Positions 1,906 to 32,468 of a stretch of DNA of 46,433 nucleotides are shown here, one piece after another. Every line of letters starts with the position of its first letter. The stretch's first letter is position 1. The notes below the pieces were generated by a model that saw nothing but the letters and a program-made list of their open reading frames with translations, had not been told where the DNA came from and made no database searches. A program made the position numbers and the translations under genes. This DNA comes from a virus: positions 1 to 46,433 of IMG/VR virus record IMGVR_UViG_3300032288_001529. One strand, 5' to 3'.

Positions 1906-2974
1906 ATGTGTTCAAAGCCTCAACGACATGATCGAGTTCTGTTTGTGTGAGCCACCAACCATTAGGAATACAAACTTGAGTTGTGGTAAACTGTGTCACA
2001 CCAGGCAAATCATTCTCAGCAAACTGGATCGTGCAGTCATACAAATCGTTTCTGAAATGAACTGGACTTGATGCAATATCTTTCTCTTCCAGATACTTCA
2101 TAAAGTGATCTTTCTTAGTTTCTGGTGCGTGCATACTGAACAGCCAGAATGATGTTGTACTATCAAACTTAGGAAGAGTCAGAGCTTTGTTAGTTACATT
2201 GTCGATGATGTACTTGCTGTTCTCACGTTGTTTGATAACAGATTCATTTGCAAGATCGATGTTTGCAAGACCAATAGTTGCACTGATATCATTCATATGA
2301 TACTTGAAGCCAGCTTTCTTGATATTCTGTGTGCAACGAAATGACTCGTTCTTAGTTCTGTCTAGACCAAACCAACGAAGCAGTCTAGCTTCTTCAGCCT
2401 TCTTTTCGTCAGCACAAACGATTGCACCACCATCACCACAAGTTAGAAACTTGATTGCTTGAAAGCTATAACAGATATAATCACCACGTTCTGGTCGATC
2501 AGTAAAGAATGAGTCCCAAGTGTGTGCAGCATCTTCAATAACAGGTATGCCAAAAGACTTTAGCTTTGCATAGTCACACAGCTTACCTGCCCAGTTGACT
2601 GCAACGATAGCTTTTGTCTTTGGTGTGATGAGCTTTGCTGCCGAATCAGGATCCATCAGACCTGTAATGGGATCAATGTCTGCCCAACGAATTTTGGCCT
2701 TCTTATGAAGAATACCAATCTGTGAAGCAAAGCATGTTTGTGGTGTGGAGATGACCTCATCACCAACTCCAACTCCACATAACTCTAGTGATAGATCAAT
2801 TGCAGATGTGCATGAGTTTACGGTTACAGGCACACTTTTGCTTTTTAGCTCTTTCTGTAGAGCTAACTCAAATTCATCTACCTTTGGACCCTGTGAGATG
2901 TATCCACTATGCAGTACAGGAATCAAATGAAATCCTACGTTTTCAGACATTCTCACCTTGAATAGTGGAATCAT
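1898..2974 (-). CDS. DegT/DnrJ/EryC1-type sugar aminotransferase
   Basis: PLP-dependent aminotransferase that adds an amino group to a keto-deoxy nucleotide sugar. The 358-residue length fits the family. Visible landmarks are YISQGPKVDEFE at the N-terminus, the SCTSAIDL cofactor-binding stretch (~54-61), VIEDAAH with the PLP-contacting Asp (~145-151), and the probable Schiff-base Lys175 in SFQAIKFLTCGDGG. It sits directly after a GNAT acetyltransferase (ATGA overlap) and in the same cassette as a 4,6-dehydratase, the usual trio for an N-acetylated dideoxy-amino sugar. No 3,4-ketoisomerase (FdtA type) was seen, so a 4-amino product (perosamine, viosamine or Fuc4N type) is more likely. GGAG lies 9 nt before the ATG. 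Confidence 0.88.
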   Translation of the reverse strand: MIPLFKVRMSENVGFHLIPVLHSGYISQGPKVDEFELALQKELKSKSVPVTVNSCTSAIDLSLELCGVGVGDEVISTPQTCFASQIGILHKKAKIRWADIDPITGLMDPDSAAKLITPKTKAIVAVNWAGKLCDYAKLKSFGIPVIEDAAHTWDSFFTDRPERGDYICYSFQAIKFLTCGDGGAIVCADEKKAEEARLLRWFGLDRTKNESFRCTQNIKKAGFKYHMNDISATIGLANIDLANESVIKQRENSKYIIDNVTNKALTLPKFDSTTSFWLFSMHAPETKKDHFMKYLEEKDIASSPVHFRNDLYDCTIQFAENDLPGVTQFTTTQVCIPNGWWLTQTELDHVVEALNTYA

Positions 2975-3417
2975 TGTCTATACTCCATTTTCGTAATTTC
3001 TGCTGTTTTGTCGTATTCGATAAATCCTAGTTTATCGTACAGACTTTTTGCTACGGTGTTTGTGTTTAGAACTTCTAGTTCAATCTTTCTTGAACTGTCA
3101 ATTCGCTTTGCTTCATCAATCAGATTCTGAAATATGTATCTTCCCATGCCTTGACCTCGTGACTTTTTAGTCAGACCACCAGTCACAAGGAAAACATCAT
3201 TTTCAATTCGAAGTATTCCATATCCGACAGCACGATTATCAACTTTAGCAAGATACAACTTCATCTTGCTTTTGTCAAGTGAATTGTACCAAGATGACTG
3301 TTGTTTCTTGGAAATATATTTTGTGTTCCTTGTCATGAAAAGACGGCATTCATTTCTCAGCTTTCGCATAATCTGCGCATCATCTTCACTTAGAACTTCT
3401 GTGAAATCAAATGTCAT
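2971..3417 (-). CDS. GNAT-family N-acetyltransferase
   Basis: A 148-residue GCN5-related acetyltransferase. It shows the acetyl-CoA pyrophosphate-binding motif RGQGMGRYIFQNLIDEA (~90-106, R/QxxGxG/A) and the closing NTVAKSLYDKLGF segment typical of motif B. The likely role is to acetylate the amino sugar made by the adjacent DegT aminotransferase, as in VioB- or WecD-type steps, though the acceptor cannot be read from sequence. It begins 11 nt inside the 254-aa gene and ends in an ATGA overlap with the aminotransferase. No strong ribosome-binding site precedes the ATG at 3417, so coupling to the upstream gene is likely. Confidence 0.85.
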   Translation of the reverse strand: MTFDFTEVLSEDDAQIMRKLRNECRLFMTRNTKYISKKQQSSWYNSLDKSKMKLYLAKVDNRAVGYGILRIENDVFLVTGGLTKKSRGQGMGRYIFQNLIDEAKRIDSSRKIELEVLNTNTVAKSLYDKLGFIEYDKTAEITKMEYRQ

Positions 3418-4171
3418 TTTCTACATAATATCCCTGATTAGCTCTGACATTAAATGCTTTTGTATTGGGCTTTGAACATACCCAAAACTCATTTCTAAAT
3501 CGGTCTGCAAGATTTTGAATCCACGGATCTCTTGCAGACTTTCTAAACTCAATCCACCAATTATCATCCATAGGATGAGCAAGTGATCTTACATGTTCAG
3601 ATTTTGTCCACCAGAAATTGCCTTTATAATGTGGCGGATCAGATTGATAGTCGATTCCTGCTGTATCAAATTGGCTCAATGAATCAACACACTTTTGCCA
3701 ATTGTTGATCACACCCCAATTCATCAACTGGCGCCATAGATGCCTGTTCTTGAACTTAGATGCTGCTTTGTATGTTAGTAGGCAATTTGATATTGCTGTT
3801 ACTGCTTTAGTGTGAATATACAGAACATGCAAGTCTTCTTTCTGACAGTCATCATACAATTTGGCAATCGTGTGTGTTTCACTAAATGGCTTTGCTTTAT
3901 CTCCCTGTAATTGAGAGAACTCCTTTAGCATATCAAAGTCATCTTGAAATTTGTTCTCGACAAACTCTAATTGAATCTTGACGGGAAACGCAGCACATAG
4001 TTTATGAAAGATTTCTGTTCTCTCGTCAGCCTTTGAGATTGCAGTGATCTTCATCAAATCAACCTGCTGAAGCAGATTGTTTTTTTCCATCAGAGTCATT
4101 TGCTCTGTGAAGATGCTTGTCCAATAATAGAGATCATCCAAATAGGCATGATAATAGATTTGCTTCTTCAT
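3407..4171 (-). CDS. Glycan-cassette protein, putative glycosyltransferase
   Basis: A 254-residue protein without a domain I can name with certainty. A pattern common in polysaccharide loci is visible: YIHTKAVT, then a W-rich core (RHLWRQLMNWGVIN), GIDYQSDPPHYKGNFWWTK and FRNEFWVCS. Proteins with such HYxGNFWW stretches are usually listed as putative glycosyltransferases. It lies between a C-methyltransferase (ATGA overlap upstream, GAGG 11 nt before the start) and a GNAT. Function in glycan assembly is inferred from context and this motif only. Confidence 0.6.
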   Translation of the reverse strand: MKKQIYYHAYLDDLYYWTSIFTEQMTLMEKNNLLQQVDLMKITAISKADERTEIFHKLCAAFPVKIQLEFVENKFQDDFDMLKEFSQLQGDKAKPFSETHTIAKLYDDCQKEDLHVLYIHTKAVTAISNCLLTYKAASKFKNRHLWRQLMNWGVINNWQKCVDSLSQFDTAGIDYQSDPPHYKGNFWWTKSEHVRSLAHPMDDNWWIEFRKSARDPWIQNLADRFRNEFWVCSKPNTKAFNVRANQGYYVENDI

Positions 4172-5403
4172 GTTGTGTGAACCTCTACTTTTGGAAAGTA
4201 TGTCACAAACTGATCTCTAATATTAGGTCTTGCAGCTTTGATCTTAGCTTTGATTTCATCATAGAAATTCCAAGCAAGTGGCACAAAGACTGTAGGACGT
4301 TCGTCAAGGAGTTTTTCAGAACCAAAGATAGGAATGTTCATTCCTGGTGTGAACTTGTTTTGTTTGAGTGGATTATCGTCGATGATATAATCTAGCTCAA
4401 TATTACCATAGTTTAGTAGAGTCATGCCTTTGGCCGCTGCACCATATCCAACAATAGGTAGTGATGAACCACGGAACTGATCTAATGTTGTTTTGAGAGC
4501 AGTAACAATCTCTGTGCATTTCTTAGCATACTCAACATATGTTGAATCTGTGTATAGTCCTGCTTTACGTTCGATCTCAATTGCATTAGCAATGTTAGCT
4601 GGTCGAGACATGAGACGATTACGAGAGATGACGAATAGATAGCTGTTGCCATGCAATGGTGTTTTGATCACATCTACAAGAAACAAGCCAACACGAGTAC
4701 ATAGCTCATTCATCGACTTGATATTGAAGAAGTTGATGTGCTCATGATAAATGGTATCAAACTCATTATTGAGAATCATATCAGCCTGTGAAGTCTGAAC
4801 GAACAATAACGAATCGTCACTCATAGCTATACGAGCAGCACGCAAGAATGCTTTGGGATCAAAGTTATGAGCAAACACATTCTGCGCAATCAGAATATCA
4901 AAAATCTTGCCTGTCTTGAGCACAAAGTCCATATTGAAAAACTCTGGCCATACAGTATGTCGCTGTGATGAAACTTTGTATAGATTCTGTGCCGGATCAA
5001 TACCAAATGTTTTGACACGATGATGAGCAAACGCATCTAGTTGTGATCCATCATTGCAACCAATATCAAGCACATTTACTGGACGCAATGCTGATAACGT
5101 CTCAAAATACTCATGAGCATAGTCAGCAAACCACTTGAAGTAGTTTTTCATGGTCTTTGATGTACCAGACACATACAAATAATCCTTGAACATAAGTTCT
5201 GGATTGACTGCATGTGTTAGCTGCACATGAAAACAGTCCTGACAACGATTGATCGCCAGAGGAAACTCTTCTTGGTATTCCTTTTTGCTGTTCTTGTATG
5301 AGTTAGCCAGAGGCTGATTGTTCAAATCGAGTGTGAGAACAAGGCGATCAGAGCCACATGCCAAACACTCATTGAGTTTAAGTAAATTGTTTTGGGAAAA
5401 CAC
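4168..5403 (-). CDS. SAM-dependent sugar C-methyltransferase
   Basis: About 411 residues, the size of TylC3/NovU-type nucleotide-sugar C-methyltransferases. An N-terminal zinc-like site is visible (NECLACG ... NRCQDCFH), followed by the SAM-binding motif VLDIGCNDGSQLDAF and a C-terminal domain with PIVGYGAAAKGMTLLNY and YIIDDNPLKQNKFTPG. The three-part arrangement (zinc, Rossmann methyltransferase, C-terminal nucleotide-binding-like domain) is characteristic. I prefer a GTG start at 5403, which has AAAGGA about 9 nt upstream and overlaps the 222-aa gene by 26 nt. An in-frame ATG at 5451 has no ribosome-binding site. The substrate is probably a dehydrated nucleotide sugar from the 4,6-dehydratase. 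Confidence 0.85.
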   Translation of the reverse strand: MFSQNNLLKLNECLACGSDRLVLTLDLNNQPLANSYKNSKKEYQEEFPLAINRCQDCFHVQLTHAVNPELMFKDYLYVSGTSKTMKNYFKWFADYAHEYFETLSALRPVNVLDIGCNDGSQLDAFAHHRVKTFGIDPAQNLYKVSSQRHTVWPEFFNMDFVLKTGKIFDILIAQNVFAHNFDPKAFLRAARIAMSDDSLLFVQTSQADMILNNEFDTIYHEHINFFNIKSMNELCTRVGLFLVDVIKTPLHGNSYLFVISRNRLMSRPANIANAIEIERKAGLYTDSTYVEYAKKCTEIVTALKTTLDQFRGSSLPIVGYGAAAKGMTLLNYGNIELDYIIDDNPLKQNKFTPGMNIPIFGSEKLLDERPTVFVPLAWNFYDEIKAKIKAARPNIRDQFVTYFPKVEVHTT

Positions 5404-6046
5404 GTTGCATATTCCTTTTGCCAAATTTCTCAAAGACCACAACACTATCATAGAAGTGAACTGAAGTCAACCCTTCAGCTAGTTTCGTTTTTCTCTCCCA
5501 TTCAGTGTTAGTATCTATCTGATCTCTCCAATCATGATGCAGGACATCAACAAAGTCCTTTGCATACTCTATGAATGATGAGTTTCTTTTATATCCTCCA
5601 TTATGTGTTCTGTGATATGATGTGTGAGTATCTTCACAGATGTATGTGCCGCCCATATTCAATTTAGGAAACACTTTTTCAAAAGTCACAATCTGCTGTT
5701 CCATGACATGCCCACCATCATCGATAAACACATCGATAGGAGGAAAATGTGTGAGAAACTTGTCCCAGAACTGTTCTGACTGTTGATTTCCTATAACAAT
5801 AGAGATGTTTGGATTATCGTATTTTAGATTCATGCAGTTAGGATCAGCATCAATACCTGTGATGATTGATTTCTTGAAATACTTACTCCACAGAATGAGA
5901 CTGCCACCATTTTGAACACCCACTTCAACAAGATGAATGGGACGCTCTGTGTATCGACGAAGATACCTTTCATAGATTTCAAAGTATGCATTCCATTTGT
6001 CTGACGACAAAGGAAGATCATAGAACAACTCTTCTATTTCTAACAT
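5378..6046 (-). CDS. Class I SAM methyltransferase (CmcI/macrocin-type)
   Basis: A 222-residue Rossmann methyltransferase. Motif I reads HLVEVGVQNGGSLILW, the acidic beta-2 end is ITGIDADP, and the stretch VFIDDGGHVMEQQI with CEDTHTSYH resembles the cephalosporin-hydroxylase/macrocin O-methyltransferase group, in which the DDGGH stretch helps bind metal. Likely role: O-methylation of a sugar. The ATG at 6046 overlaps the upstream stop as TGATG and AAGGA lies about 8 nt before it; an in-frame TTG one codon upstream is less likely. Confidence 0.8.
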   Translation of the reverse strand: MLEIEELFYDLPLSSDKWNAYFEIYERYLRRYTERPIHLVEVGVQNGGSLILWSKYFKKSIITGIDADPNCMNLKYDNPNISIVIGNQQSEQFWDKFLTHFPPIDVFIDDGGHVMEQQIVTFEKVFPKLNMGGTYICEDTHTSYHRTHNGGYKRNSSFIEYAKDFVDVLHHDWRDQIDTNTEWERKTKLAEGLTSVHFYDSVVVFEKFGKRNMQRVFPKQFT

Positions 6047-6792
6047 CAAAGAGTTCCTTCTTTTTTCATATTGTACAAGCCGATAAATTTATCATGATTG
6101 TGTTTTCCATACATTTCAGTGTAGCATTCATGTTCTATAGGAAACTTCTTTACTTTGATGTTTCTGTTCTGAATGAAAAACAAACTGACCAATCTTTCGA
6201 CGATGAAGATAAAATTTGGAATCACAGAAAAATGTTCTTTGCCGTCTTTGAAAGATGAACACATTCTTCCTCTTCTGTATAATTGCTCATACAGATATTC
6301 GTCTTGACTGCAAAGAACTAAGATGTTATCGACATAAAGAAAGAACTCAGTCCAAAAATGAGAGTTACCGATCACGAAATTACATGTTGCAAAATCTTCT
6401 GCTTTGTATGAGATGTCTTGGCATGGCACATTTATACCAATTTTAGGAAACAGAACATTAGCAAAGTCTGTATATCCATCTTGACACCAAAGATTGTTGC
6501 ATAGTGCAGCAACAATCAAGTATGCATCAAAGTGATATACATCATAACCAGGATTATCGAGAATCCACTGCCGAAATACTTGAGGTTCGAGATGTGTTTT
6601 CTCTTTCCATTTCCAAGAGACTAGACCCCAATGAGCATCGGTATGTCTATTCTTTTGAAACAAGTCCTTCAGCAGTGGATACTCTCTAAGATCAGGCCTT
6701 TTATTTTCGGTATTATCGTAAGGAATAAATGCACTATCAAGGCTAGGCAATTGAATAGGATCATAATATGCCTGATATATTTTCACGTTCAT
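6046..6792 (-). CDS. Hypothetical glycan-cassette protein
   Basis: A 248-residue protein opening VKIYQAYYDPIQLPSLDSAFIPYDN, a pattern I associate with uncharacterised proteins of viral and bacterial polysaccharide clusters, with GYDVYHFDAYLIV and a tail ending in YGKHNHDKFIGLY. No nucleotide-sugar motif is certain; HFDAY could be a DxD-like site. It lies between two methyltransferase genes with a TGATG overlap downstream and only 15 nt upstream, so it belongs to the same transcript. A glycosyltransferase role is a guess from context. Confidence 0.55.
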   Translation of the reverse strand: MNVKIYQAYYDPIQLPSLDSAFIPYDNTENKRPDLREYPLLKDLFQKNRHTDAHWGLVSWKWKEKTHLEPQVFRQWILDNPGYDVYHFDAYLIVAALCNNLWCQDGYTDFANVLFPKIGINVPCQDISYKAEDFATCNFVIGNSHFWTEFFLYVDNILVLCSQDEYLYEQLYRRGRMCSSFKDGKEHFSVIPNFIFIVERLVSLFFIQNRNIKVKKFPIEHECYTEMYGKHNHDKFIGLYNMKKEGTL

Positions 6793-6807
6793 TATAAGTA
6801 GTCTCTG

Positions 6808-7377
6808 TTACGAGAGAGTCAATTCTCGTTGTTTATACCAGAACCAAACGTCTTGGTTCGTTGTTCCAATCATGGCTTTCAGATCATTAGCAAATTCCAC
6901 AACTGCATTATTTACATCTGGAATGCCTCTGAAGTCATGTCCACAAAACAGTCCACCCTTCTTGAGTTTGGGCCAATAGTTACGACAATCAAGAAGTACC
7001 TGCTTGTATGTATGTAAACCGTCAATGAAGATGAAATCGAAGCTATCATCTTCAAACATACTTAGTGCGTCATCAGATGTCTTTCTAACATGAGTGAATC
7101 TATCACTATAAGGAGATGTTCGATTCTTCATGATAGTTAGTGCATTTTCACGATCATCTGCTGGTACAGTTGGTCCTGTCCAATCATCATACATTGTGTA
7201 TGGATCAACACCAATCAATGTCAACTTGGGTAATGACTTGAGTAGATATTCGGTAGTCACACCGTGATCGACACCAATTTCAATACCCTTTAGTTCAGCA
7301 TTCTTGTCGAGAAGGGATGGAATCCCTTCTCCTGGTAGCCATGTTGGCTTTGTTTCTGATTCGAAGATGTATTTCAT
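6808..7377 (-). CDS. Class I SAM methyltransferase (Methyltransf_24-like)
   Basis: About 189 residues. SAM motif I is GIEIGVDHGVTTEYLL, the acidic residue after beta-2 is in LIGVDPYTMY, and the later motif FDFIFIDGLHTYKQVLLD plus GGLFCGHDF is the classic pattern of this small methyltransferase group. The ATG at 7377 forms an ATGA overlap with the stop of the 4,6-dehydratase, which decides the start over an in-frame ATG at 7410. It is probably a sugar O-methyltransferase. It closely resembles, in layout, the 176-aa gene at 11833-12363. Confidence 0.82.
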   Translation of the reverse strand: MKYIFESETKPTWLPGEGIPSLLDKNAELKGIEIGVDHGVTTEYLLKSLPKLTLIGVDPYTMYDDWTGPTVPADDRENALTIMKNRTSPYSDRFTHVRKTSDDALSMFEDDSFDFIFIDGLHTYKQVLLDCRNYWPKLKKGGLFCGHDFRGIPDVNNAVVEFANDLKAMIGTTNQDVWFWYKQRELTLS

Positions 7378-8411
7378 AGATTGATCCACTCTTGATTTTG
7401 CATTGACCAATCAACAACACCCTTGATTCGCTCACGTAGAGTGAATCGTGGTTCCCAACCTAGCTTGCGCATAAACTCACCAGACAAAGCATAACGAAGA
7501 TCGTGACCAGGACGTGAAGAATGGAAGTCAATCATCTCATACTTCAACTTCTTGCCTTGACATTCTGCAATGTATTGCGCAAGTTGTAGATTGTTGATTT
7601 CTTCTTTACCAACAACGTTGAACTTTGGACACTTTGCACCACCATAATCAGGCTCATAAACTAGCTTGAGTTGCTTTTCATTGAGATGCAATAGGAAATA
7701 GATTGCATCGGCTACATCTGAACCATGGATATAGAAACGTGATCCTGGAATAGTTTTTGTGTGATCAGAGTGAATGAACACAGTATCATCATCACGCACT
7801 TTACGAATGCACATAGGAATATACTTCTCTGGATGCTGTCTTGGTCCAAAGACGTTCATTGTATGTGTGATGAAGACTGGCAGCTTGTATGTGTTTTCAA
7901 ATGCAACAGCCAACTCTTCACCACCAGCTTTAGATGCTGAATATGGATTGCTACAGTTGTAACGTTCTTTCTCTGTATAGTTTACACCATTTGGTGCTGG
8001 TCCAAAGACTTCATCGGTAGAGAAATAAATGAACCGCTTGAGATCCTTCTGTTCACGAGCAAAGTTAAGGATGTTGCAAGTACCAACAACGTTGTCCATC
8101 ACAAACTCCATTGGATGTGTGATAGATCGATCAACGTGGCTGCTTGCTGCTAGATGGACGATATAATCAAACTCACCAAGCATGTTCTTGAGCAGTGTAT
8201 TGATTTCTGCTTTGAGATCGTGCCAAACAACCTTCACTCGTTGCTGTTCACTCTTAGAATACCGAGAAACAACATCATTTAGTCTGTTGAGATTACCAGA
8301 ATAATCTAGTCGATCTAGTGATACGATTTCCCAATCTGTTTGTTTCAAAAACATATCTACAACATGATGACCGATGAAACCAGCACCACCAGTTAGAAGC
8401 ACTCTTGTCAT
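7374..8411 (-). CDS. NAD-dependent nucleotide-sugar 4,6-dehydratase (RmlB-like SDR)
   Basis: A 345-residue extended short-chain dehydrogenase. It has TGGAGFIGHHVV at the N-terminus for NAD binding, LAASSHVDRSI, then FSTDEVFGP with the catalytic Thr-Asp-Glu of sugar 4,6-dehydratases, and YSASK with catalytic Tyr and Lys. TDEV is the signature of the dTDP-glucose 4,6-dehydratase branch, but the base (dTDP, UDP, GDP or CDP) cannot be fixed by eye. Product: a 4-keto-6-deoxy sugar, the substrate for the DegT aminotransferase and the C-methyltransferase in this cassette. The start at 8411 is chosen for AGAGG 7 nt upstream. Confidence 0.88.
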   Translation of the reverse strand: MTRVLLTGGAGFIGHHVVDMFLKQTDWEIVSLDRLDYSGNLNRLNDVVSRYSKSEQQRVKVVWHDLKAEINTLLKNMLGEFDYIVHLAASSHVDRSITHPMEFVMDNVVGTCNILNFAREQKDLKRFIYFSTDEVFGPAPNGVNYTEKERYNCSNPYSASKAGGEELAVAFENTYKLPVFITHTMNVFGPRQHPEKYIPMCIRKVRDDDTVFIHSDHTKTIPGSRFYIHGSDVADAIYFLLHLNEKQLKLVYEPDYGGAKCPKFNVVGKEEINNLQLAQYIAECQGKKLKYEMIDFHSSRPGHDLRYALSGEFMRKLGWEPRFTLRERIKGVVDWSMQNQEWINL

Positions 8412-8424
8412 TATATTACCTCTC

Positions 8425-9204
8425 TTATCGATTTGAAATGTACTTGTGGGCAGGATCAACTGTTGCCCGTTTCTTGATCAACTCATAAACTTCTGGATCA
8501 TTCTTTTGATCTTCTCTTGGCGAAAATAGAGCACGAACTCTGTTTTCAGTTGTGGATGGAGCAGGCTGCAAGTAGTATGCAGCAATGCTTTTTCTAACAA
8601 CATTCTCTGGACAATCAATATAGTTAGGCAGACCATGCCAGGAATTTTGTGTTGTGTCGAAGATTATAGCACGATTGTATATATTGTCAACCACTTTCTC
8701 GCATCTCAATGGCTGATTTGTTTCTGGATTGTGTGACCACAACTCAAGACCACCACCCCACTCAGGTTTCCAATCTTTTGTAAGATAGACAATGATGTTT
8801 AGCTTTCGTTGCATACCCATCTTTGGATGAAGATTATAGTCTAGATGGATATTGTTGTTACCACCTTTACTATGCATATGCCAACCGCCACCGTTGAGTC
8901 CATAATCAAAGATCAGTTCATATGATTGAACCATATTCTTCATTTGACACAAGAACGATTCTCTACCAAATTCCATGAAAGCACGATATGTACATGATGG
9001 AAATCTGTTCCAGTGATTGAACGACTTCTTGTTTTCGAGTGCGTTCATATGTTCAGCAATGCTTGTGTCGTTGTAGTCAGGAAACTCTTCGGATAGTTTA
9101 TCAGCTACTTCGGGTGTGAAGAAGTTGTCAATTATTACATGATTGAAAGGTATAGAGTTAGTAAACTCATAGCACACCTTTTCCCATGGCAAATCACGAA
9201 TCAT
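8425..9204 (-). CDS. 2-oxoglutarate/Fe(II)-dependent oxygenase
   Basis: A 259-residue prolyl-4-hydroxylase-like dioxygenase. The iron facial triad is readable as His120 and Asp122 (NIHLDYN) and His190 (NSWHGLP), followed by Arg204 (VVRKSIAAYY) for the 2-oxoglutarate carboxylate. WGGGLELW between them is a common feature of the family. T4-like phages often carry such enzymes with unknown substrates. Here it is locked between two glycan genes (ATGA overlap with the 240-aa gene, GAGG 10 nt upstream), so a sugar or a glycosylated protein is a reasonable substrate guess. Confidence 0.88.
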   Translation of the reverse strand: MIRDLPWEKVCYEFTNSIPFNHVIIDNFFTPEVADKLSEEFPDYNDTSIAEHMNALENKKSFNHWNRFPSCTYRAFMEFGRESFLCQMKNMVQSYELIFDYGLNGGGWHMHSKGGNNNIHLDYNLHPKMGMQRKLNIIVYLTKDWKPEWGGGLELWSHNPETNQPLRCEKVVDNIYNRAIIFDTTQNSWHGLPNYIDCPENVVRKSIAAYYLQPAPSTTENRVRALFSPREDQKNDPEVYELIKKRATVDPAHKYISNR

Positions 9205-9923
9205 TTTTTGTAACCTCTTAGTGTTTGTTGCACATCAACTGGAGTGTATTCGATATTAAACTTCTCTCTCATATACTTTGGAAAGAAGTCCGTCATCAAA
9301 TAGTTCATCTCACGAAAACCATCTTCTTTGTCATATGAACTTTCTCGTCTCGCATGTTTGATTGAAACATCATGAATCACATGAGCAGAGGCTTGCAGAT
9401 AATAACAAAGAATCTTGTCGATACCCCAATCGGACTTTTCGTACTTGTAGTCATTCAAAAACTTGAGAACTTTTCTGAAGATGTCATTTCTAAAGAACGG
9501 TACGCCAAGTTCGATGAAGTTCGTCTCTGTGAATATATAGTCTTTGTTTTGTTCAAGACATGGATACACTGTCCATGATGTCAGTGATTGCTGAAAGAGT
9601 CTAAAGTCATATTGTCTAGCTAGTGTCAATGCTTTATTGACTGATTGAATGTCAGTCACATAATCGTCATCCCAACATCCGATGTAATCATAATCTTGCC
9701 AGTTGATGATCTTGCAGATTTCAGGAATCAGATTCCACTTGAGTCCCTTCTTTCGAATGATATAGTCATATGTGCCTGGCTCTGGTTGAAAGTCATTGAA
9801 CACAACCACACACGTTTCATACGTGCGTTCTGGTTTAGTCATACGCCAATGATTGTCTTTGTCATATCCCTCATCAAAATATAATGGACATCCAGTTGGT
9901 GTGATGATCAGTGCTTTATGCAT
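9201..9923 (-). CDS. Putative GT-A glycosyltransferase
   Basis: A 240-residue protein with a GT-A style layout: beta-strand start KALIITPTGCPLY, a later strand ending in the acidic cluster YIGCWDDDYV (DxD for metal-bound nucleotide sugar, ~residue 84-93), VPFFRNDIFRKV, and EKSDWGIDKILCYYLQ, the WGID-type acceptor-side stretch often seen after DxD. It overlaps the fucosyltransferase gene by 8 nt and the oxygenase gene by ATGA. Donor and acceptor are unknown. Confidence 0.7.
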   Translation of the reverse strand: MHKALIITPTGCPLYFDEGYDKDNHWRMTKPERTYETCVVVFNDFQPEPGTYDYIIRKKGLKWNLIPEICKIINWQDYDYIGCWDDDYVTDIQSVNKALTLARQYDFRLFQQSLTSWTVYPCLEQNKDYIFTETNFIELGVPFFRNDIFRKVLKFLNDYKYEKSDWGIDKILCYYLQASAHVIHDVSIKHARRESSYDKEDGFREMNYLMTDFFPKYMREKFNIEYTPVDVQQTLRGYKK

Positions 9924-10806
9924 TTAGAACACCCTTATATACTGTGCGTTCGAACCAGTTGAGGAATCTATCTTTGTCAAAGAACTTGTTGACCTTTTGA
10001 TAGTCAGCAAACATTGGTTCCATATACATTTCTTCATACATGTCTGGTGTTTGATCGATCTCTTTGATTGCTTCGAAGAAGTCTTGATCATTGCCAAAAT
10101 CATGATAGTTGAGAAATGCTTTGCGATTGAAATCAACTTCGATTGTTGGACTACCCCAATAGATAGGAATTGTCTTGGCGCACAGAGCTTCGTACAACTT
10201 CTCTGTTGCATAGCCAGGATAGCTGCTGTTCTCAAAGCACAGATTGAACTTGTATGAGTTGAGAAACTTGAGCTTGGCTTGAACTGCTTCTTCACCTCGA
10301 GGTAGAATGTATCCAATATTATTAAAAAGTGGTCCACCAGATGCAACTTGACGATATTCGTTTAGCTTGTGAAACCACTTGTTGCGCATTTCACATGCAC
10401 CGTTCTTGACAACAAACGAACAAAAGTCTTTTTTCACATTTAGATCAGATGGTGATCTAGAAATAGTATCTGTGTTAGGCACGTCTCTAAAATGATTGTC
10501 ATAGTCATAGATTACATACAAGGGCAAACGATAGTTACGACCATCAAATTCATGATGGTCAAATGAGATTGAAAAATGACAACGATAGTCCCATGGTCTT
10601 GCATTTTCTCCTGTATAGAAAATCTTTAGACAATTTCTGTTGTCATAGTTGACATTGTTATTGCCAAAGTTTTTATCACCAAAGATCAGATAGTCTGGAT
10701 TTGTATCATCTCGAACGACCTGAAATCTCTCAGATAGAATATTAGTGAAGAAGTTTTCAACTCCACCAAATGTATCTGTGAATCCTAATTTCAATAGATT
10801 AGTCAT
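9916..10806 (-). CDS. GT10 alpha-1,3/4-fucosyltransferase-like glycosyltransferase
   Basis: A 296-residue GT-B enzyme. The C-terminal half holds the fucosyltransferase hallmark: KFNLCFENSSYPGYATEKLY followed by EALCAKTIPIYWGSPTIEVDFN, the region binding GDP-fucose in GT10 enzymes. The N-terminal half (FTGENARP, SISFDHHEF, LPLY) also follows the family. Donors are GDP-L-fucose or the related GDP-L-galactose. It lies directly downstream of a GDP-mannose 3,5-epimerase, whose product is GDP-L-galactose, with the ATG at 10806 overlapping that gene and GGAG about 11 nt upstream. The pair therefore looks like a dedicated donor-and-transfer module. Confidence 0.88.
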   Translation of the reverse strand: MTNLLKLGFTDTFGGVENFFTNILSERFQVVRDDTNPDYLIFGDKNFGNNNVNYDNRNCLKIFYTGENARPWDYRCHFSISFDHHEFDGRNYRLPLYVIYDYDNHFRDVPNTDTISRSPSDLNVKKDFCSFVVKNGACEMRNKWFHKLNEYRQVASGGPLFNNIGYILPRGEEAVQAKLKFLNSYKFNLCFENSSYPGYATEKLYEALCAKTIPIYWGSPTIEVDFNRKAFLNYHDFGNDQDFFEAIKEIDQTPDMYEEMYMEPMFADYQKVNKFFDKDRFLNWFERTVYKGVLNA

Positions 10807-11830
10807 TATTCACTTGCTCCATAATCCACTTGTATGTCAGTGCTAGACCAACTTCTAGTGAGTAGCTAGGTTTCCAACCAAGTTTTTCTTCAATCAACCG
10901 ATTATCAGAATTGCGACCACGAACACCTGTAGGACCATCAATATGATTTTTGGTCAGTGTCTTGTTGCCGATCATGCAAGCAATATCTACTAGCCGATTG
11001 ATTGTGACCATCTCTTCAGAGCCAATGTTGACTGGACCCATGAAGTCAGATTCCATGAGCTTGCGTACAGCATCAATGCAATCGTTGATATACAGAAATG
11101 ATCGTGTCTGATTGCCGTCACCCCAGATTTCAAGACTGTCTTTTGCTTGAATAACCTTACGGCAGATAGCAGCAGGTGCTTTCTCTTTACCGCCTTGCCA
11201 TGTTCCAAGTGGACCATAGATGTTATGAAAGCGAGCAATACGAACAGGGATGTCATAGTTGCGATGATATGCGAGATACAGTCGCTCAGAGAACAGCTTC
11301 TCCCAACCATACTCACTGTCAGGATTAGCAGGATATGCCGAGTCTTCAGCACAATTTGGATTGTTAGGATCAAGCTGATTATGCTCTGGATACATGCAAG
11401 CCGACGACGAATAGAAAATCTTGGGTAGCTTTTGATCGATCATTTGCTTATGATGTTTGACGACTGCATCTAGCACATTGAGATTGATCGTGGCCGAGTT
11501 GTGCATCACGTTGGCATCATTCTCACCGGTAAAGATGTATCCTGCACCACCCATGTCAGCAGCAAACTGGTAAATTTCGTCAAACGGAACATCGAATCGA
11601 CGAGCAAACGTCTGATGTGGATTACGCTCACAACCAGCATAAGAAACAAGCTCATATACTTCTCGTGCATCACGAAGATCACGATATACGAAATGATCTG
11701 CTTTTGAAGAAGAGAACTCGGGATACTTCATATCAATAGCACGAACCCAGTAGCCTTCTTCTTTGAGTCGTGTTACCATATGATTGCCGATGAAGCCACC
11801 AGCACCCAACACCAATGCAGTCTTTTTCAT
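10799..11830 (-). CDS. GDP-mannose 3,5-epimerase-like SDR
   Basis: A 343-residue extended SDR that follows the plant enzyme GME closely by eye: FAADMGGAGYIFTGEN with early ADMGG, SSSACMYPEHNQL, DSEYGWEKLFSE with catalytic Tyr174/Lys178, ARFHNIYGPLGTWQGGKEKA, WGDGNQTRSFLYINDCI, GPVNIGSEEMVTINRL and GVRGRNSDNRLI. GME epimerises C3 and C5 of GDP-D-mannose, giving GDP-L-galactose (and L-gulose). Start 11830 is selected for AGAGG upstream; an in-frame ATG 27 nt further up has no such site. The next gene is a GT10 transferase. A different epimerase of the same subfamily remains possible. Confidence 0.85.
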   Translation of the reverse strand: MKKTALVLGAGGFIGNHMVTRLKEEGYWVRAIDMKYPEFSSSKADHFVYRDLRDAREVYELVSYAGCERNPHQTFARRFDVPFDEIYQFAADMGGAGYIFTGENDANVMHNSATINLNVLDAVVKHHKQMIDQKLPKIFYSSSACMYPEHNQLDPNNPNCAEDSAYPANPDSEYGWEKLFSERLYLAYHRNYDIPVRIARFHNIYGPLGTWQGGKEKAPAAICRKVIQAKDSLEIWGDGNQTRSFLYINDCIDAVRKLMESDFMGPVNIGSEEMVTINRLVDIACMIGNKTLTKNHIDGPTGVRGRNSDNRLIEEKLGWKPSYSLEVGLALTYKWIMEQVNND

Positions 11831-11832
11831 AA

Positions 11833-12363
11833 TTACCTCTTGATCCAGAACCAGCACCCGTTTGAAACCATGATGGGTGTGCCAATCTTATTTTTGCGAC
11901 GGAAATTCCAAAGAGCTGTTTTCACTCTTGATTGATCATGTTCGTTACCACAGAAAATTCCATTTGACTTGACAGCAGTATAGTACTTTTCTAAGTTAGA
12001 GTCAAGATCAGAATCAACATGGACAGATACAACATGAGCAGACCCGCTGTAATCAGAAATAGAAAGTCTCTCCAGTCCTGCCACGTTTCTTTCAAGAACT
12101 GCTTTGTATCCTTCAAACTCTTCTTTCCTTTTTGGATCATATGAAACTACTCCATAAATCTTCTCAATCTTTTTGTCTGTATCTTTCTCAAGAAGATAGG
12201 CAGCATTCTCACCTTTCATGACACCAACATCAAGCACGATTAGATTTGTTTCTTTGAGTCGTTTGATATATGGCCAGATACCGTGTGCAACAATATCACT
12301 TGGTGGCCATATTCCCATCTCCTTAGACTGAGTGATGGAAAATTGTGTCGGGTCTAGTAGCAT
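11833..12363 (-). CDS. Class I methyltransferase-like protein
   Basis: About 176 residues. It shows IVLDVGVMKGENAAYLL (a motif I in which the usual second glycine is changed) and a C-terminal segment SNGIFCGNEHDQSRVKTAL that corresponds in place to the GGLFCGHDF segment of the 189-aa methyltransferase at 6808-7377. It may be a diverged or inactive relative. Several in-frame starts exist; ATG 12363 is favoured because GGAG lies 6 nt upstream. It overlaps the 313-aa gene by 41 nt, unusual for this tightly packed but mostly short-overlap cassette. Confidence 0.65.
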   Translation of the reverse strand: MLLDPTQFSITQSKEMGIWPPSDIVAHGIWPYIKRLKETNLIVLDVGVMKGENAAYLLEKDTDKKIEKIYGVVSYDPKRKEEFEGYKAVLERNVAGLERLSISDYSGSAHVVSVHVDSDLDSNLEKYYTAVKSNGIFCGNEHDQSRVKTALWNFRRKNKIGTPIMVSNGCWFWIKR

Positions 12364-13264
12364 TATCATCTCCATAAAGTTGTTCAATTCGCTGTTTCAA
12401 AAATGGAATACGGTCATACTGATGCACGACCACATAAGGCATTTTGTCTTCATTATACACTAGCCCATTTTCGCCAAACACAGGCTGCTTGTCTTCATAT
12501 GAAAGTTGATACTTAAGAAGATTCGTTGGATTATCACCAAGAGTTTTTCCTAGATCACCAGCACCTGCTTTGACTGCTTCAATCGTTGTGCCAAGATTTG
12601 CTGCCCAATCATCTTCCATTGATGTAAAGTATGTATCAAGTCTCCATGGATCAGTTTGAACGATAAAGTTGAATACAGCTTGATCAACGATTAGAATAGG
12701 ACGATTGACACTCAAATGGAAAATGAAAGAAAGCAGACCCTTCATGTGTGCAAATTCACCAGCCAGCACACCGACATTGTAGATATAATTCTCTTTGAGA
12801 ATATGATGAAAGTATGGTCCAAATGCTTCTAGAAGATTTTGATTGCCCCATGGCTCATTCTTGTAACGCATACCTTCAGATGCACACACGATAGGATACA
12901 TCTGTAGACCACGTTCTAGCCATGTTGATGGATTGCGTTGAAACACAACATCACGAGTATCTGTTGTGATGACATAACGATATGCTTCTTTTGTTGACTT
13001 GAGATATTCCCATAGATAGAAGAATCGCTCGACATGTGGTGCATTGTTAGTGGGTGCTTCAACATCACCATTTTCTTTACGGGTACCATAAAGATTGAGC
13101 ATCACGCCTTCTTGAGTGAGCTTCTTGATGGTTTCTGCTTTGAGATTAGTTCCAACTAGAACCACATCACCCGTGAAGCCAGTCTTGCGAATAGAGTTGA
13201 TCCAATACTTTAGATCGTTCCATGTGTAGCCCACTGCTGCACCAATAATCAAGTCCTTCATCAT
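12323..13264 (-). CDS. Putative glycosyltransferase of the sugar cassette
   Basis: About 313 residues. The N-terminus MKDLIIGAAVGYTWNDLKYW with INSIRKTGFTGDVVLVG is a GT-A type first strand and helix, and VITTDTRDVVFQRNPSTWL carries the conserved TDxRDVVFQ motif of GT-A proteins common in polysaccharide loci, with the two aspartates in DxD-like position. YNVGVLAG and DQAVFNFIV further support this. Three ATGs cluster at 13270, 13264 and 13261; AGAGG just before the first suits 13264 or 13261 better. It follows the FkbM gene within 3 nt. Confidence 0.72.
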   Translation of the reverse strand: MMKDLIIGAAVGYTWNDLKYWINSIRKTGFTGDVVLVGTNLKAETIKKLTQEGVMLNLYGTRKENGDVEAPTNNAPHVERFFYLWEYLKSTKEAYRYVITTDTRDVVFQRNPSTWLERGLQMYPIVCASEGMRYKNEPWGNQNLLEAFGPYFHHILKENYIYNVGVLAGEFAHMKGLLSFIFHLSVNRPILIVDQAVFNFIVQTDPWRLDTYFTSMEDDWAANLGTTIEAVKAGAGDLGKTLGDNPTNLLKYQLSYEDKQPVFGENGLVYNEDKMPYVVVHQYDRIPFLKQRIEQLYGDDNATRPDTIFHHSV

Positions 13265-13266
13265 GT

Positions 13267-13986
13267 TCATCCTCTATAAAGATAGAAATCGTCCCATCGT
13301 GACAATTGTGTAAACTTTCTCTCATACTTATGCTTACTCATAAGATCAAACAACTTCTGTCTCATGCTCTCATTATAGTTATGCTCGATTGTAATGCACC
13401 TAATCATGTGTTCATTTCCATGATTTGAAAAGTATGCATTCAAAATATCATACTCACTGCCTTCTGTGTCTACTGACATATAATCAATTTCATATGGTGC
13501 AGATTTGAGCATGTCGGCAAGTGAGATTGTGTTTACTTCAAAAGTATTACCATTCTTACGAATATGACTGTGCTCATCGTCTTCACCAAATCCTTGAATA
13601 GTAGAAAGTGTTGGATCAGGTGCATTGACAAATTGCAATGTCTTACCAGTTTCAGTGTATACGCAGTCTTTTACGATTTTTGCTTTTCGATTTTTGATTA
13701 GATCATCGTGCCACACAACATTTGGTTCAGCAAGAATGCCAGTCCAATTATGATTTGCTTCTAATAAAAGTGTGTTGCTTCCATCTACTCCATTTGTGGC
13801 ACCAAACTCGACAAAGAATCCATTCATTTTATACTTTGTCTCATAAAGAGCCCAGACATCTTGAAAGTTTTGAGAGTTCGTATGATGTGTATGAGCTAAA
13901 CAATGACCTAGAAAATGAATCTGTTCTTCATTTCCATATTGATCCCGAAAGGAGTAGAGTAGTGATTCAAGACTTATTTGTGCCAT
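13267..13986 (-). CDS. FkbM-family methyltransferase
   Basis: A 239-residue SAM-dependent methyltransferase of the FkbM group. Visible are SQNFQDVWAL, the motif I variant FVEFGATNGVDGSNTLLLE, GILAEPNVVWHDDL, and the family signature DYMSVDTEGSEYDIL. FkbM enzymes O-methylate sugars and polyketides and are common in phage and bacterial glycan loci. The start lies 13 nt inside the GT2 gene (ATG overlapping the last codons), with only a weak CGGAA-type ribosome site, so coupling is likely. Confidence 0.88.
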   Translation of the reverse strand: MAQISLESLLYSFRDQYGNEEQIHFLGHCLAHTHHTNSQNFQDVWALYETKYKMNGFFVEFGATNGVDGSNTLLLEANHNWTGILAEPNVVWHDDLIKNRKAKIVKDCVYTETGKTLQFVNAPDPTLSTIQGFGEDDEHSHIRKNGNTFEVNTISLADMLKSAPYEIDYMSVDTEGSEYDILNAYFSNHGNEHMIRCITIEHNYNESMRQKLFDLMSKHKYERKFTQLSRWDDFYLYRG

Positions 13987-14711
13987 GGATAAATTCCGCC
14001 ATATTTTTGTTTTACAATTTCATTACCACGTTCAAAGAACTTCATATCACCACCATATGCTTTTTGCATGTCTGGTAGTCTATAATGGAGCGTATGTAGT
14101 CCAGTTGTATCATAATTATCATGCTTGAGTGCTTGAGTGATAATACTAAAGAAGCGACGATCACCACCCCAACCATGATGCCAGTAATGACAGACTTGAA
14201 TCAAGAACTGTCTTTGAAACATATAAGATGATGTATCAACGAGATGTTGCGGATTATCATCTTGTGAAAAGAAGATTGGCCAACGACCAATGCTTTCGCA
14301 ACAGTCATCTGCCAGATATTCATCACCTACATATACCTTGCGTAATGAATGTGCCCAATCTAGATTCTTTGATTGAATTTTAGAAACAAGTGAATCAACA
14401 TGATTCTCGTCCCACCAGTTATCTGCATCTAGAAAAGCAATAAAATCTTGATTGATAAGATGAGGATATGCAGCAAGAATACGATGACCATAATAACCAC
14501 TACCACCTGTGTTTTCTGGTGTGACTGTCAATAGAACATTATATGGAACATACTTTCTAGCTTGTTCAAGATACTCAGGACCATCAACAACAATAATGTG
14601 TGTGATGTTTTTGTATGTCTGCTTCTTTACACTTTCAATTGCTTGTGTCAGATTCTTTTCACCAATAGTAGGTGTAAGAACGGCCACAGAAGGCTCAATA
14701 ATCAATCTCAT
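13974..14711 (-). CDS. Family 2 glycosyltransferase
   Basis: A 245-residue GT2 enzyme and the first gene of the sugar cassette. It has VAVLTPTIGEKNLTQAIESV with KKQTYKNITHIIVVDG, the canonical GT2 opening, then DFIAFLDADNWWDENHVDSL with the DxD metal site (~95-97). GWGGDRRFFSII in the second half is the acceptor-side stretch. GAGGT lies 7 nt before the ATG at 14711. No promoter is evident in the 8-nt gap after the endolysin, so the cassette may be read through from the lysis block. Confidence 0.9.
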   Translation of the reverse strand: MRLIIEPSVAVLTPTIGEKNLTQAIESVKKQTYKNITHIIVVDGPEYLEQARKYVPYNVLLTVTPENTGGSGYYGHRILAAYPHLINQDFIAFLDADNWWDENHVDSLVSKIQSKNLDWAHSLRKVYVGDEYLADDCCESIGRWPIFFSQDDNPQHLVDTSSYMFQRQFLIQVCHYWHHGWGGDRRFFSIITQALKHDNYDTTGLHTLHYRLPDMQKAYGGDMKFFERGNEIVKQKYGGIYPWHK

Positions 14712-16655: not shown

Positions 16656-16688
16656 TAAAGAAAAAGCAGGGAGATTATCTCTCCCTGC
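16656..16688 (-). terminator. Rho-independent terminator after hsp20
   Basis: On the minus strand a perfect 9-bp stem (GCAGGGAGA with TCTCCCTGC, 5-nt loop) at 16666-16688 is followed by CTTTTTCTTT. It lies 25 nt after the hsp20 stop. A smaller CAGGACT/AGTCCTG hairpin precedes it. It separates hsp20 from the heme-oxygenase-like gene. Confidence 0.88.
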
Positions 16689-17186: not shown

Positions 17187-17273
17187 GTGTCAACTCCTAT
17201 GTTAGCGAGTTAAGTTGTGATGCTTTCCCCTTAGGCGAAAGCTGTTGAGGTACGCAACACCTTATCCTCAACA
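17187..17273 (-). ncRNA. Structured hsp20 leader, candidate ROSE-like RNA thermometer
   Basis: The predicted transcript from the 17280-17308 promoter begins near 17273. Three successive hairpins can form. First, UGUUGAGG/CCUCAACA (8 bp, 17266-17273 with 17243-17250). Second, GCUUUC/GAAAGC with an inner CC/GG separated by a G-G mismatch (17222-17242). Third, UUAACUC/GAGUUGA (17207-17213 with 17190-17196), which buries the GAG of the Shine-Dalgarno AGGAG (17194-17198). A UCGCU (17204-17208) matching the ROSE signature U(U/C)GCU lies 5 nt before AGGAG. The last-hairpin layout agrees with ROSE thermometers of rhizobial small heat shock genes. Temperature response is inference. Confidence 0.6.
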
Positions 17274-17279
17274 CTACTA

Positions 17280-17308
17280 TATATAATACTTTTTTGCTTC
17301 CATGTCAA
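17280..17308 (-). promoter_or_regulatory. Sigma70-type promoter for hsp20
   Basis: Minus strand: exact -35 TTGACA (17303-17308), 17-nt spacer, -10 TATATA (17280-17285). The predicted start falls at the base of the first leader hairpin. Confidence 0.85.
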
Positions 17309-22819: not shown

Positions 22820-23620
22820 TTATTCCTCTAAAGGGAGTTGTGAAGATTGCTTCTCTTTTCGTATTTTTGCCCACCTTTTTTTATGACTTTCAACAACTTT
22901 TTTTCTAAAATTCGGATTACTCCAGTTTTTTTTAGAAGTTATTGACTGTTGCTTTCTATAATCATCATCCATTGAAACTTTTAGTGATTGACTTATTTTA
23001 TTTTTTGTCTCTTCCGTATGTTTTTTACCATACATAGGATTGTTAATGCCTGATACTTTTGCACGAATTTCTGGTCTGTGCATTGGATTATTTTCTAAAA
23101 GTCTTTTTCTATGTTTCTCTCTTACTTCTGGCAAATTATTAGGATTTCTTTCTGGATTTTCCAGAAGAAATTTACTCATCGATTTAGCCTGTTTTGCCTT
23201 CACTTCAGGTCTTTTCATTTGATGATCTGGACTACCAGTCATTCGTTCAGATGTTTGTCTTGCGATTTCTCTACGAACTTCATCAGTTATGAAAAACATT
23301 TTACCATTAGTCATATTCAAACATGTTCCACCCTTACCATATCGTCCATGTTTGGACCATGCTTCTTTTATTAATTTACTTTCTTTATCAATAAATAATT
23401 TAATATCTGATCTCGATTTTACTTTTTTAGACTCAATTATTTCTTTTTCTTTTTTATATGTCACATCTTCCCAAAGATTCTTGAATGTATGAGGTGATCC
23501 CATGTAGTCATCATCTTCTGGTTTACATCTACAACCATATCTAATACCAAAATAATATAGAGTGGGATTATTTTCTTTTATAAAACTAATTTTGTATAGA
23601 TATACATATTGTTCCTTCAT
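22820..23620 (-). CDS. Free-standing homing endonuclease (GIY-YIG-like, NUMOD3)
   Basis: 266 residues, very basic and visibly AT-rich (28% GC in one 60-base sample line, compared with about 40-45% in neighbours). The N-terminus YVYLYKISFIKENNPTLYYF with GIRYGCRC is a GIY-YIG-type catalytic segment variant. The middle has NUMOD3-like repeats: NNPMHRPEIRAKVSGINNPM and YGKKHTEETKNKISQSL, DNA-binding modules typical of phage homing enzymes. It is inserted exactly between genes 44 and 62, starting in a TAATG overlap with gene 44. It is not in an intron: both neighbours are intact. Confidence 0.85.
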   Translation of the reverse strand: MKEQYVYLYKISFIKENNPTLYYFGIRYGCRCKPEDDDYMGSPHTFKNLWEDVTYKKEKEIIESKKVKSRSDIKLFIDKESKLIKEAWSKHGRYGKGGTCLNMTNGKMFFITDEVRREIARQTSERMTGSPDHQMKRPEVKAKQAKSMSKFLLENPERNPNNLPEVREKHRKRLLENNPMHRPEIRAKVSGINNPMYGKKHTEETKNKISQSLKVSMDDDYRKQQSITSKKNWSNPNFRKKVVESHKKRWAKIRKEKQSSQLPLEE

Positions 23621-30964: not shown

Positions 30965-31984
30965 TCACTTCATTGATTTCGATACACTTTTTGGAATGTG
31001 TTTTAACTTCATTCCATACTCATTTACTTTGGGTAGTTTGGACAAATCAATATCTGGTTTCAAACGCAATCTATTATCGGAATCTGTTAGACCAAGATTT
31101 CTCCTGATAATAATTTGTTGTGGATTCAAATCACATTCACGTTTTTGAAACACATGATAATCGACATAATGATGCCAACGACCATATCTCCAAACAACTT
31201 TAGCAACATCAGGATGCATATCGACAAGCATTTGCGACTTGTTGACTGTACCAGTTGCATTTAGCTGACCATCACGCCACTTCGATTTGTCAGTGATACC
31301 TTCTTTGTGATAGAACTCTTCGGTGTTGCCACCCTTGACAGTTTGTGTTGCTGCTTTACCTTGAAGAAACGCATTGAACTGGATCGTGCAGTCACCATCT
31401 TTCAATACACGAAGGCAAATATCAGTGTCTTCATTGTATCGACCACGCCAACGATGTTTGCAATCATTAGAGATCAAAAGACAAGAATATATGCGAGTGT
31501 TTGCAACGAAAGGTGGATAGGCTTGATTTGGTGCAATGAAGAATCTGTACTGAAAGCCTGAGATAGGAACATTCTCGAACCGATCAACAAAGTCTTCGGC
31601 TGCTTTGAAGATCACACCAGATTCCACACGAATGCGTTGATTCTTATGAAGTCGATAGAAGTCTTGGATGTTATCATCACAAACAAAATGTTTTTTTGAT
31701 CCTATCGAGATAGCATGATCCCATGCATAGTTTCTTGCACGACCAGGTCCATCACCATGATTAGAGAATGGTGCTACGATCAAAGTTGCCATATCAATAT
31801 TAAAAGTCTCGAATGATTTTCGATATGACTCTTCATCCTGAGGTTCAATGACAATGTAATGTGGTACTCGCATTCTGTTTAGAGAACGTGAGGTATACAT
31901 TGTGCTTGCTCTGCCTTTAGATACAATATACACAGGACTTTCAGGATTTGTATGTTTGAATTTGCCGTCAGCCATGATTTGCAT
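30965..31984 (-). CDS. TET-associated-type glycosyltransferase (TAGT-like)
   Basis: 339 residues from the first ATG. PVYIVSKGRASTMYTSRSLN with HYIVIEPQDEESYRKS is the opening I associate with TAGT glycosyltransferases, and GDGPGRARNYAWDHAI with KHFVCDDNIQDFYRLHK gives the GT-A donor site (DDN). RGRYNEDTDICLRVLKDGDC is the acceptor-side EDTD motif. TAGTs glycosylate hydroxymethylated pyrimidines in phage DNA; no TET/JBP oxygenase or hydroxymethylase is in this window. Two ATGs compete: 31984 (GGAG only 3 nt away) and 31975 (GGAG 12 nt away). Both lie in the 3' end of the HNH endonuclease gene. Confidence 0.78.
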   Translation of the reverse strand: MQIMADGKFKHTNPESPVYIVSKGRASTMYTSRSLNRMRVPHYIVIEPQDEESYRKSFETFNIDMATLIVAPFSNHGDGPGRARNYAWDHAISIGSKKHFVCDDNIQDFYRLHKNQRIRVESGVIFKAAEDFVDRFENVPISGFQYRFFIAPNQAYPPFVANTRIYSCLLISNDCKHRWRGRYNEDTDICLRVLKDGDCTIQFNAFLQGKAATQTVKGGNTEEFYHKEGITDKSKWRDGQLNATGTVNKSQMLVDMHPDVAKVVWRYGRWHHYVDYHVFQKRECDLNPQQIIIRRNLGLTDSDNRLRLKPDIDLSKLPKVNEYGMKLKHIPKSVSKSMK

Positions 31985-32468
31985 ATTCTCCGTGCAACAT
32001 GTTTCTCTGTTCCTCTAACCATTGCAAAGCTAATGATAGATTTTCTTCAGAAATAGGAACAAATGTTTTATGTATTTTTTTTCTGTTAACTTGAATTTGT
32101 GCATGTATTCTATTAAATTTAGGATAGAACGATATTCCTTTTATACCTGAACGATTGTTCTTTTGTCGTTTTTTATTTGTATTATTCCATGTACAATTTG
32201 CTGCTCTTAAATTTTCTATATGATTATTACGTGGATTACAATCAACATGATCTATTACTTCGGATAAAACACCATGATGAAAAAGGTATATCATTCTATG
32301 TAGAGGATATCGTTTATTGTCTATACAAATACGGTAATATCCTGTTGCTTTATGAAAACGACCTGCTGGTGATCCTGCTTTGATTTTATTGTTGGCAGCA
32401 TTGTGTTTTCTGTAAAGCATACCATCTCTATATTCAAACCGTGAATGTAGATATTCTTGCGTAATCAT
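31968..32468 (-). CDS. Free-standing HNH homing endonuclease (with AP2-like domain)
   Basis: About 166 residues. HNH nuclease core: YPLHRMIYLFHHGVLSEVID with HVDCNPRNNHIENLRAANCT and WNNTNKKRQKNNRS, then GIKGISFYPKFNRIHAQIQV with HKTFV, an AP2-like DNA-binding segment. Typical of small phage homing enzymes. AT-rich. It starts in an ATGA overlap with the 113-aa gene and its final codons contain the ribosome site and start of the TAGT-like gene, so it was inserted precisely at that junction. No strong ribosome site of its own, suggesting coupling. Confidence 0.9.
   Translation of the reverse strand: MITQEYLHSRFEYRDGMLYRKHNAANNKIKAGSPAGRFHKATGYYRICIDNKRYPLHRMIYLFHHGVLSEVIDHVDCNPRNNHIENLRAANCTWNNTNKKRQKNNRSGIKGISFYPKFNRIHAQIQVNRKKIHKTFVPISEENLSLALQWLEEQRNMLHGEYANHG

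Follow-up and report, generated by a model that had tools for sequence, protein, structure and literature searches.

ROSE-like RNA thermometers are defined by a U(U/C)GCU sequence that is imperfectly paired with the Shine-Dalgarno (SD) sequence in a 3'-proximal hairpin, and two hairpins are enough in Pseudomonas (Krajewski 2013; PMC3669281). Searches of the open-access literature on phage RNA thermometers returned reviews and lambda cIII (PMC4166951). No report of a phage ROSE element was found in the open-access literature searched, mainly at the level of titles and abstracts, which agrees with a preceding sequence-only reading of this locus that knew of no such element; subscription papers were outside the search and absence is unproven. 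Leader regulation was not mentioned in the cyanophage Hsp20 papers examined, and a survey of the non-coding RNAs of S-CREM1 reported wcaG, manA, glnA and abiF, with no thermometer. In a survey of 104 motifs, manA RNAs were found before ibpA chaperones, and their structure differs from that of the phage hsp20 leader. Among the core genes of cyanobacterial T4-like phages is hsp20, whose role is unsettled between capsid scaffolding (Sullivan 2010; PMC3037559) and host survival at raised temperature (PMC7674155).

The hsp20 transcription unit and its leader

The window, i.e., the whole 46,433-b virus record analyzed here, was identified by its PHROGs gene content as a fragment of a T4-like phage. 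The PHROG genes included those for the clamp loader, sliding clamp, late sigma factor (gp55-like), SbcC-like recombination protein, UvsW-like helicase, major head protein and head protease. Judged by eye, positions 1195-14711 hold a big block of ORFs resembling glycosyltransferases, methyltransferases and nucleotide-sugar enzymes, larger than is usual in fragments of T4-like phages, and homing-endonuclease-like ORFs (GIY-YIG and HNH, also by eye) lie amid core genes at 22820-23620, 31968-32480 and 41371-41952. A scan of genome contigs for close bacterial Hsp20 proteins returned a single match (58%), in a metagenome bin. The 58% identical Hsp20 is encoded by L082 (CAIWHI010000271.1), a 132-kb contig binned as uncultured Bacteroidetes that is perhaps a phage contig in the bin.

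The features of the locus are listed in Table 1. The ATG of hsp20 is at 17186 and the leader (17187-17273) lies directly before this small heat-shock gene, as is required for ROSE membership. Transcription is inferred, from sequence alone, to start near 17273. The window has five TTGACA-N15-19-TATA promoters, that of hsp20 among them, and TTGAC-N16-19-TATA precedes hsp20 in most relatives as well. Because a likely intrinsic terminator is found downstream, hsp20 is apparently its own transcription unit.

Table 1. Features of the hsp20 locus in the window (positions of the 46,433-b record).
Feature	Position	Strand	Basis
Likely intrinsic terminator, GCAGGGAGA GATAA TCTCCCTGC TTTTT	16661..16688	-	By eye, downstream of hsp20
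hsp20, small heat-shock protein, 157 aa	16713..17186	-	Pfam HSP20 4.5e-16; PHROG 432 2.1e-38
Hairpin 3 (thermosensor candidate), UUAACUC-G-CUA ACA UAG-GAGUUGA, bulged G 17206	17190..17213	-	Predicted fold, covariation
Shine-Dalgarno AGGAG	17194..17198	-	Sequence; 7 nt before ATG
UCGCU, ROSE anti-SD motif U(U/C)GCU	17204..17208	-	Motif search; conserved in relatives
Hairpin 2, GCUUUC-G-CC UAAG GG-GAAAGC, bulged G 17236	17222..17242	-	Predicted fold, covariation
Hairpin 1, UGUUGAGG/CCUCAACA, large loop with UUGCGUACC	17243..17273	-	Predicted fold
-10 box TATATA	17280..17285	-	Sequence; 17-nt spacer from -35
-35 box TTGACA	17303..17308	-	Sequence

The position of the promoter bears on one alternative, a T4-style early/late switch, in which the hairpin would close the ribosome site in read-through transcripts and a late promoter within it would give an open transcript. 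T4 e/soc is a precedent for such a switch. In its favor, the window phage encodes the gp55-like late sigma factor and the -10 boxes of many relatives are TATAAATA-like. However, ~60 nt separate the hsp20 promoter from the 5' arm of the SD hairpin, which lies downstream of it, and the transcript thus includes the whole hairpin. Moreover, sequence inspection revealed no promoter-like box between the arms of the SD hairpin, and TATAAATA occurs only twice on the minus strand of the window, neither time at the hsp20 leader. This switch is therefore regarded as very improbable, and the reading preferred here remains a ROSE-like thermometer.

The ~87-nt leader folds into three hairpins in both the MFE and the centroid predictions, which is within the two to four hairpins expected of ROSE elements. 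Hairpin 3 is predicted to cover the entire SD and to pair UCGCU with AGGAG, the two being separated by exactly 5 nt. G17206 is bulged in both predictions, which meets the criterion of an imperfect SD pairing with a conserved G that is unpaired or non-canonically paired. This bulge was read from predicted folds, and the geometry of a non-canonical pair is beyond their reach. All 48 distinct leaders of the relatives allow the same bulged-G arrangement. The promoter, the leader length, the three successive hairpins and the 5-nt spacing had all been claimed by the sequence-only reading, and all held. Its claim that UUAACUC/GAGUUGA hides the SD also held and is extended, as an inner helix, CUA/UAG, continues past G17206. 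The G-G mismatch that it saw in the middle hairpin is amended and is better read as bulged G17236, a bulge found in 47 of the 48 distinct leaders.

The whole leader was moderately better folded than its shuffled versions (z of -1.98, 8/200). TYGCT-N5-AGGA by itself is not significant, for it occurs once in the window where 0.61 occurrences are expected by chance. What raises the leader above chance is the universal presence of the motif before hsp20 in the relatives, together with covariation.

Hairpin 1 is optional, and many relatives either lack it or have a tRNA-like sequence in its place. A role for this hairpin, with its UUGCGUACC loop, as a second sensor was weighed; it is missing from many relatives and is left unexplained. 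Its loop (hairpin at 17243-17273) is conserved and resembles GAUAAGGUAUUGCGUACC, with TGCGTW in 20 of 48 distinct leaders, and GGUA/UACC in the hairpin 1 region could compete with GAGG/CCUC. In several relatives, the place of hairpin 1 in the hsp20 leader is taken by tRNA-Met genes or by a degenerate tRNA (31.4 bits with Rfam). For instance, such tRNA sites lie between the promoter and hairpin 2 in contigs L066 (4853-4927), L072 (987-1061) and L025 (3684-3753).

Conservation and covariation of the element before phage hsp20 genes

Eighty viral contigs were retrieved by similarity of the Hsp20 protein, blind to the leader. U(U/C)GCU...AGGA was correctly placed in all retrieved close-relative contigs except two that end at the gene, and it preceded 77/77 hsp20 loci with sufficient upstream sequence (48 distinct proteins). 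Further sets were retrieved with cyanophage and pelagiphage Hsp20 queries. The motif was present before 77/77 loci of the S-RSM4-like set (50 distinct proteins), 68/79 of the HTVC115P-like set and 16/23 of the HTVC008M-like set. It was also found in 12/12 leaders of named hsp20 records, namely the cyanophages S-CREM1, S-CRM01, S-RSM4, S-CAM3 and P-RSM1, the SAR11 phages HTVC008M, Mosig and HTVC115P, the methylophage Melnitz-3, and C48C1, AG-345-P14 and 'Pseudomonas phage Y7'. As a control, the motif preceded 27 of 5524 other ORFs in all retrieved contigs, and 1 of ~1500 in the first set only. In the reverse test, a scan of IMG/VR with the motif only, 64 of 119 readable matches were directly before an Hsp20 ORF, and the remaining matches mostly had no ORF behind them.

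The second hairpin with a bulged G was similarly frequent among distinct leaders: 44/45 in close relatives, 56/56 in the S-RSM4 set, 51/51 in the HTVC115P set, 6/6 in the HTVC008M set, 39/48 in the motif scan and 9/12 in the named records, compared with 0-1.8% in shuffled sequences. In two failures of the HTVC115P set (L385 and L394) and in L112 of the motif scan, the element was found upstream of a small ORF, with hsp20 following as part of one operon. Other failures retain a variant motif, such as CUGUCU.

The small ORF encodes 71-79 aa (MSEQFTAQASQFIDTVQ...) and is phasin-like by eye. The element at this ORF (L385 1182-1245, L394 1173-1237, and L112) suggests a heat-controlled two-gene operon. 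The leader of 'Pseudomonas phage Y7' (L213, OQ572409.1) is a full, intact Pseudomonas-type ROSE_3 element, scoring 69 bits. This record is unverified, its gene is a Pseudomonas-type ibpA, and it is possibly host DNA mislabelled as phage.

In hairpin 2, 98.4% of the cells were paired and double-change cells numbered 55, compared with 15.6 after shuffling; in slid controls, pairing collapsed to 42-62%. The six outer pairs vary on both sides, with an invariant CC/GG core and an invariant bulged G. Covariation in the SD hairpin is limited because the SD itself is fixed. The innermost pair changes from A-U to U-A among relatives, and S-RSM4-like cyanophages have G-C at the third outer pair in place of C-G, which probably reflects a single event. 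Pairing is favored by the anchored way in which hairpins were extracted, and the sequences, being related, do not count as independent. Relatedness is preserved in the slid controls, but part of the extraction bias remains. The compensatory changes support the fold, strongly for hairpin 2 and modestly for hairpin 3, and this covariation was one of the checks proposed by the sequence-only reading. The anatomy of the phage elements, their conservation, their covariation and their association with hsp20 are established by these results.

A second alternative is that the leader structure serves mRNA stability or processing only and that its likeness to ROSE is coincidental. Two or three stable hairpins at the 5' end commonly protect mRNA, and some relatives have tRNA-like sequence in their leaders, both of which would fit. 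However, it would not account for an anti-SD motif that is nearly universal, for the conservation of the bulged G or for the restriction to hsp20, and this alternative, too, is very unlikely compared with a ROSE-like thermometer.

Covariance models, calculated stability and proposed function

With the Rfam ROSE models (RF00435, RF01832 and RF02523), neither the window nor its close relatives gave a match at E-values up to 10, and the positive controls did match. The absence of a covariance-model hit had been named beforehand as a result that would refute the thermometer, and it came true. The leader of Melnitz-3 matched ROSE_3 with 34 bits (E 7e-4), under the gathering score of 43. Since this methylophage leader matches ROSE_3, the null result for the window family is not decisive. 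The three Rfam models are narrow, and in their current form they miss the phage elements. The name ROSE-like is used here because the curated-model criterion, which is one of database and not of mechanism, is unmet.

A first covariance model of the window family, R1, was built with RNAalifold on a raw MAFFT alignment. Its stems were poorly placed, and R2 was therefore built with the anatomical structure. R2 scored 64 bits at the window site, the window itself being among its training sequences, and the next match in the window was at chance level. It recovered 35/35 sampled hsp20 leaders, mostly training sequences, and only a single weak match besides these across 382 kb. Outside the training set, R2 found the leaders of eight isolated phages at E-values of 2e-6 to 0.04, including S-CAM3 (2e-6), C48C1 (1e-4), S-CRM01 (2e-4), Mosig (2e-4) and Melnitz-3 (0.002). 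The phage elements are kin to one another. Via the ROSE_3 match of Melnitz-3, a chain links the window family to Melnitz and to the Pseudomonas ROSE element. Common descent with cellular ROSE elements is likely; it is unproven because R2 did not recognise cellular ROSE loci as whole structures.

The calculated cost of opening the SD in the window was 9.8, 7.3 and 6.6 kcal/mol at 20, 37 and 42 °C, respectively, higher at each temperature than that of E. coli ibpA (7.5, 5.4 and 4.9 kcal/mol). The cost ranged from 2.8 to 7.7 kcal/mol at 20 °C for the rhizobial controls, and the medians for the phage relatives were 4.5, 3.1 and 2.7 kcal/mol at 20, 37 and 42 °C. For the isolated hairpin, the predicted half-opening temperature was ~60 °C in most phages, 73 °C in the Pseudomonas type and 74 °C in ibpA, and it reached 81 °C in the window. 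By these predictions, phage hairpins fall within the stability range of functional thermometers and that of the window slightly beyond it. In the model, even known thermometers are not yet open at 45 °C, and absolute melting values thus fail to distinguish functional hairpins from non-functional ones. Because their known switching range is not reproduced, the energy calculations neither prove nor refute a thermometer.

These values bear on the third alternative, a constitutive or factor-responsive repressor hairpin. In this view, the leader hides the SD so that little hsp20 is translated, and opening is brought about not by heat but by translation or by a protein, e.g., a host RNA chaperone or a RegA-like phage repressor system. 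In favor of this alternative, the calculated stability of the window hairpin exceeds that of the known ROSE controls, and hsp20 adjoins regA in S-CRM01 and S-RSM4. However, U(U/C)GCU with a bulged G is the design of thermometers on the same bacterial gene family, and it is rare before ~5500 other phage ORFs, where a general repressor site would recur. The hairpins of relatives are also weaker, with the median opening cost at 37 °C given above. A repressor hairpin of this kind is thus considered unlikely.

Our preferred reading is that the leader of the window is a phage-borne ROSE-like RNA thermometer that represses hsp20 translation at low temperature and that is general to phage hsp20 genes, to which we give a probability of about 0.8. 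At low temperature, hairpin 3 would pair UCGCU with the SD and exclude ribosomes. Upon warming, it would melt, as the bulged G makes the helix imperfect, and hsp20 would be translated; hairpin 2, of the same bulged-G design, is probably a folding scaffold. The chaperone would then be put to use when the infected cell is under heat stress. Melting, translational control and use in heat stress are inferred, in the absence of expression data. Thus, of the claims of the sequence-only reading, heat control of hsp20 translation was an inference and remains one, and the ROSE-like assignment is supported by the position before a small heat-shock gene, the anti-SD with its bulged G, the number of hairpins, the covariation and the conservation across hundreds of phage contigs.

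A thermometer on hsp20 would favor the heat-response role of the protein and is testable in the cultured phages S-RSM4, S-CRM01, HTVC008M, Mosig and Melnitz. If true, ROSE elements extend from bacterial genomes to lytic phages. In a bolder reading, to which we incline with reserve, ROSE-like thermometers would be near-universal and long-standing in the hsp20 of T4-like and other phages of cyanobacterial, SAR11, methylotroph and freshwater hosts. Heat-triggered chaperone synthesis would then count as a general strategy of infection, and RNA thermometers would have a large, overlooked reservoir in phages.

Comparison with known RNA thermometers

As is proposed for the window element, the RNA thermometer of lambda cIII is a phage mRNA leader with temperature-dependent ribosome access (PMC4166951). 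Different from it, however, the cIII element closes when hot, alternates between two folds, has no ROSE motif and belongs to a lysis-lysogeny gene. The rhizobial hspA-type ROSE elements (RF00435) share the small heat-shock gene, the bulged G and UUGCUC opposite the SD (UUGCUC..GAGGA) with the window element, but they are larger and G+C-rich with long hairpins, and their covariance model does not match the window. ROSE_2 (RF01832), the element of E. coli ibpA, has the layout of the window element, with CUC-G-CUG AUUU CAG-GAG and an upstream bulged-G hairpin; the window does not score with it, and its cellular gene is in a different regulatory context. ROSE_3 (RF02523), the short Pseudomonas ibpA-type, shares the pair of core hairpins, the last of which has U(U/C)GCU facing the SD, the (U)GCC..GGG bulged-G first hairpin, a leader of ~60 nt and the small heat-shock gene. 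The window differs from it in scoring nothing, in a possible extra preceding hairpin and in its carrier, lytic T4-like phages. The phage element fits the description of ROSE-like elements by Krajewski 2013 (PMC3669281). The comparison with alphaproteobacterial ROSE elements made by the sequence-only reading is amended, since the closest cellular relatives are instead the short gammaproteobacterial elements, i.e., ibpA, ROSE_2 and ROSE_3.
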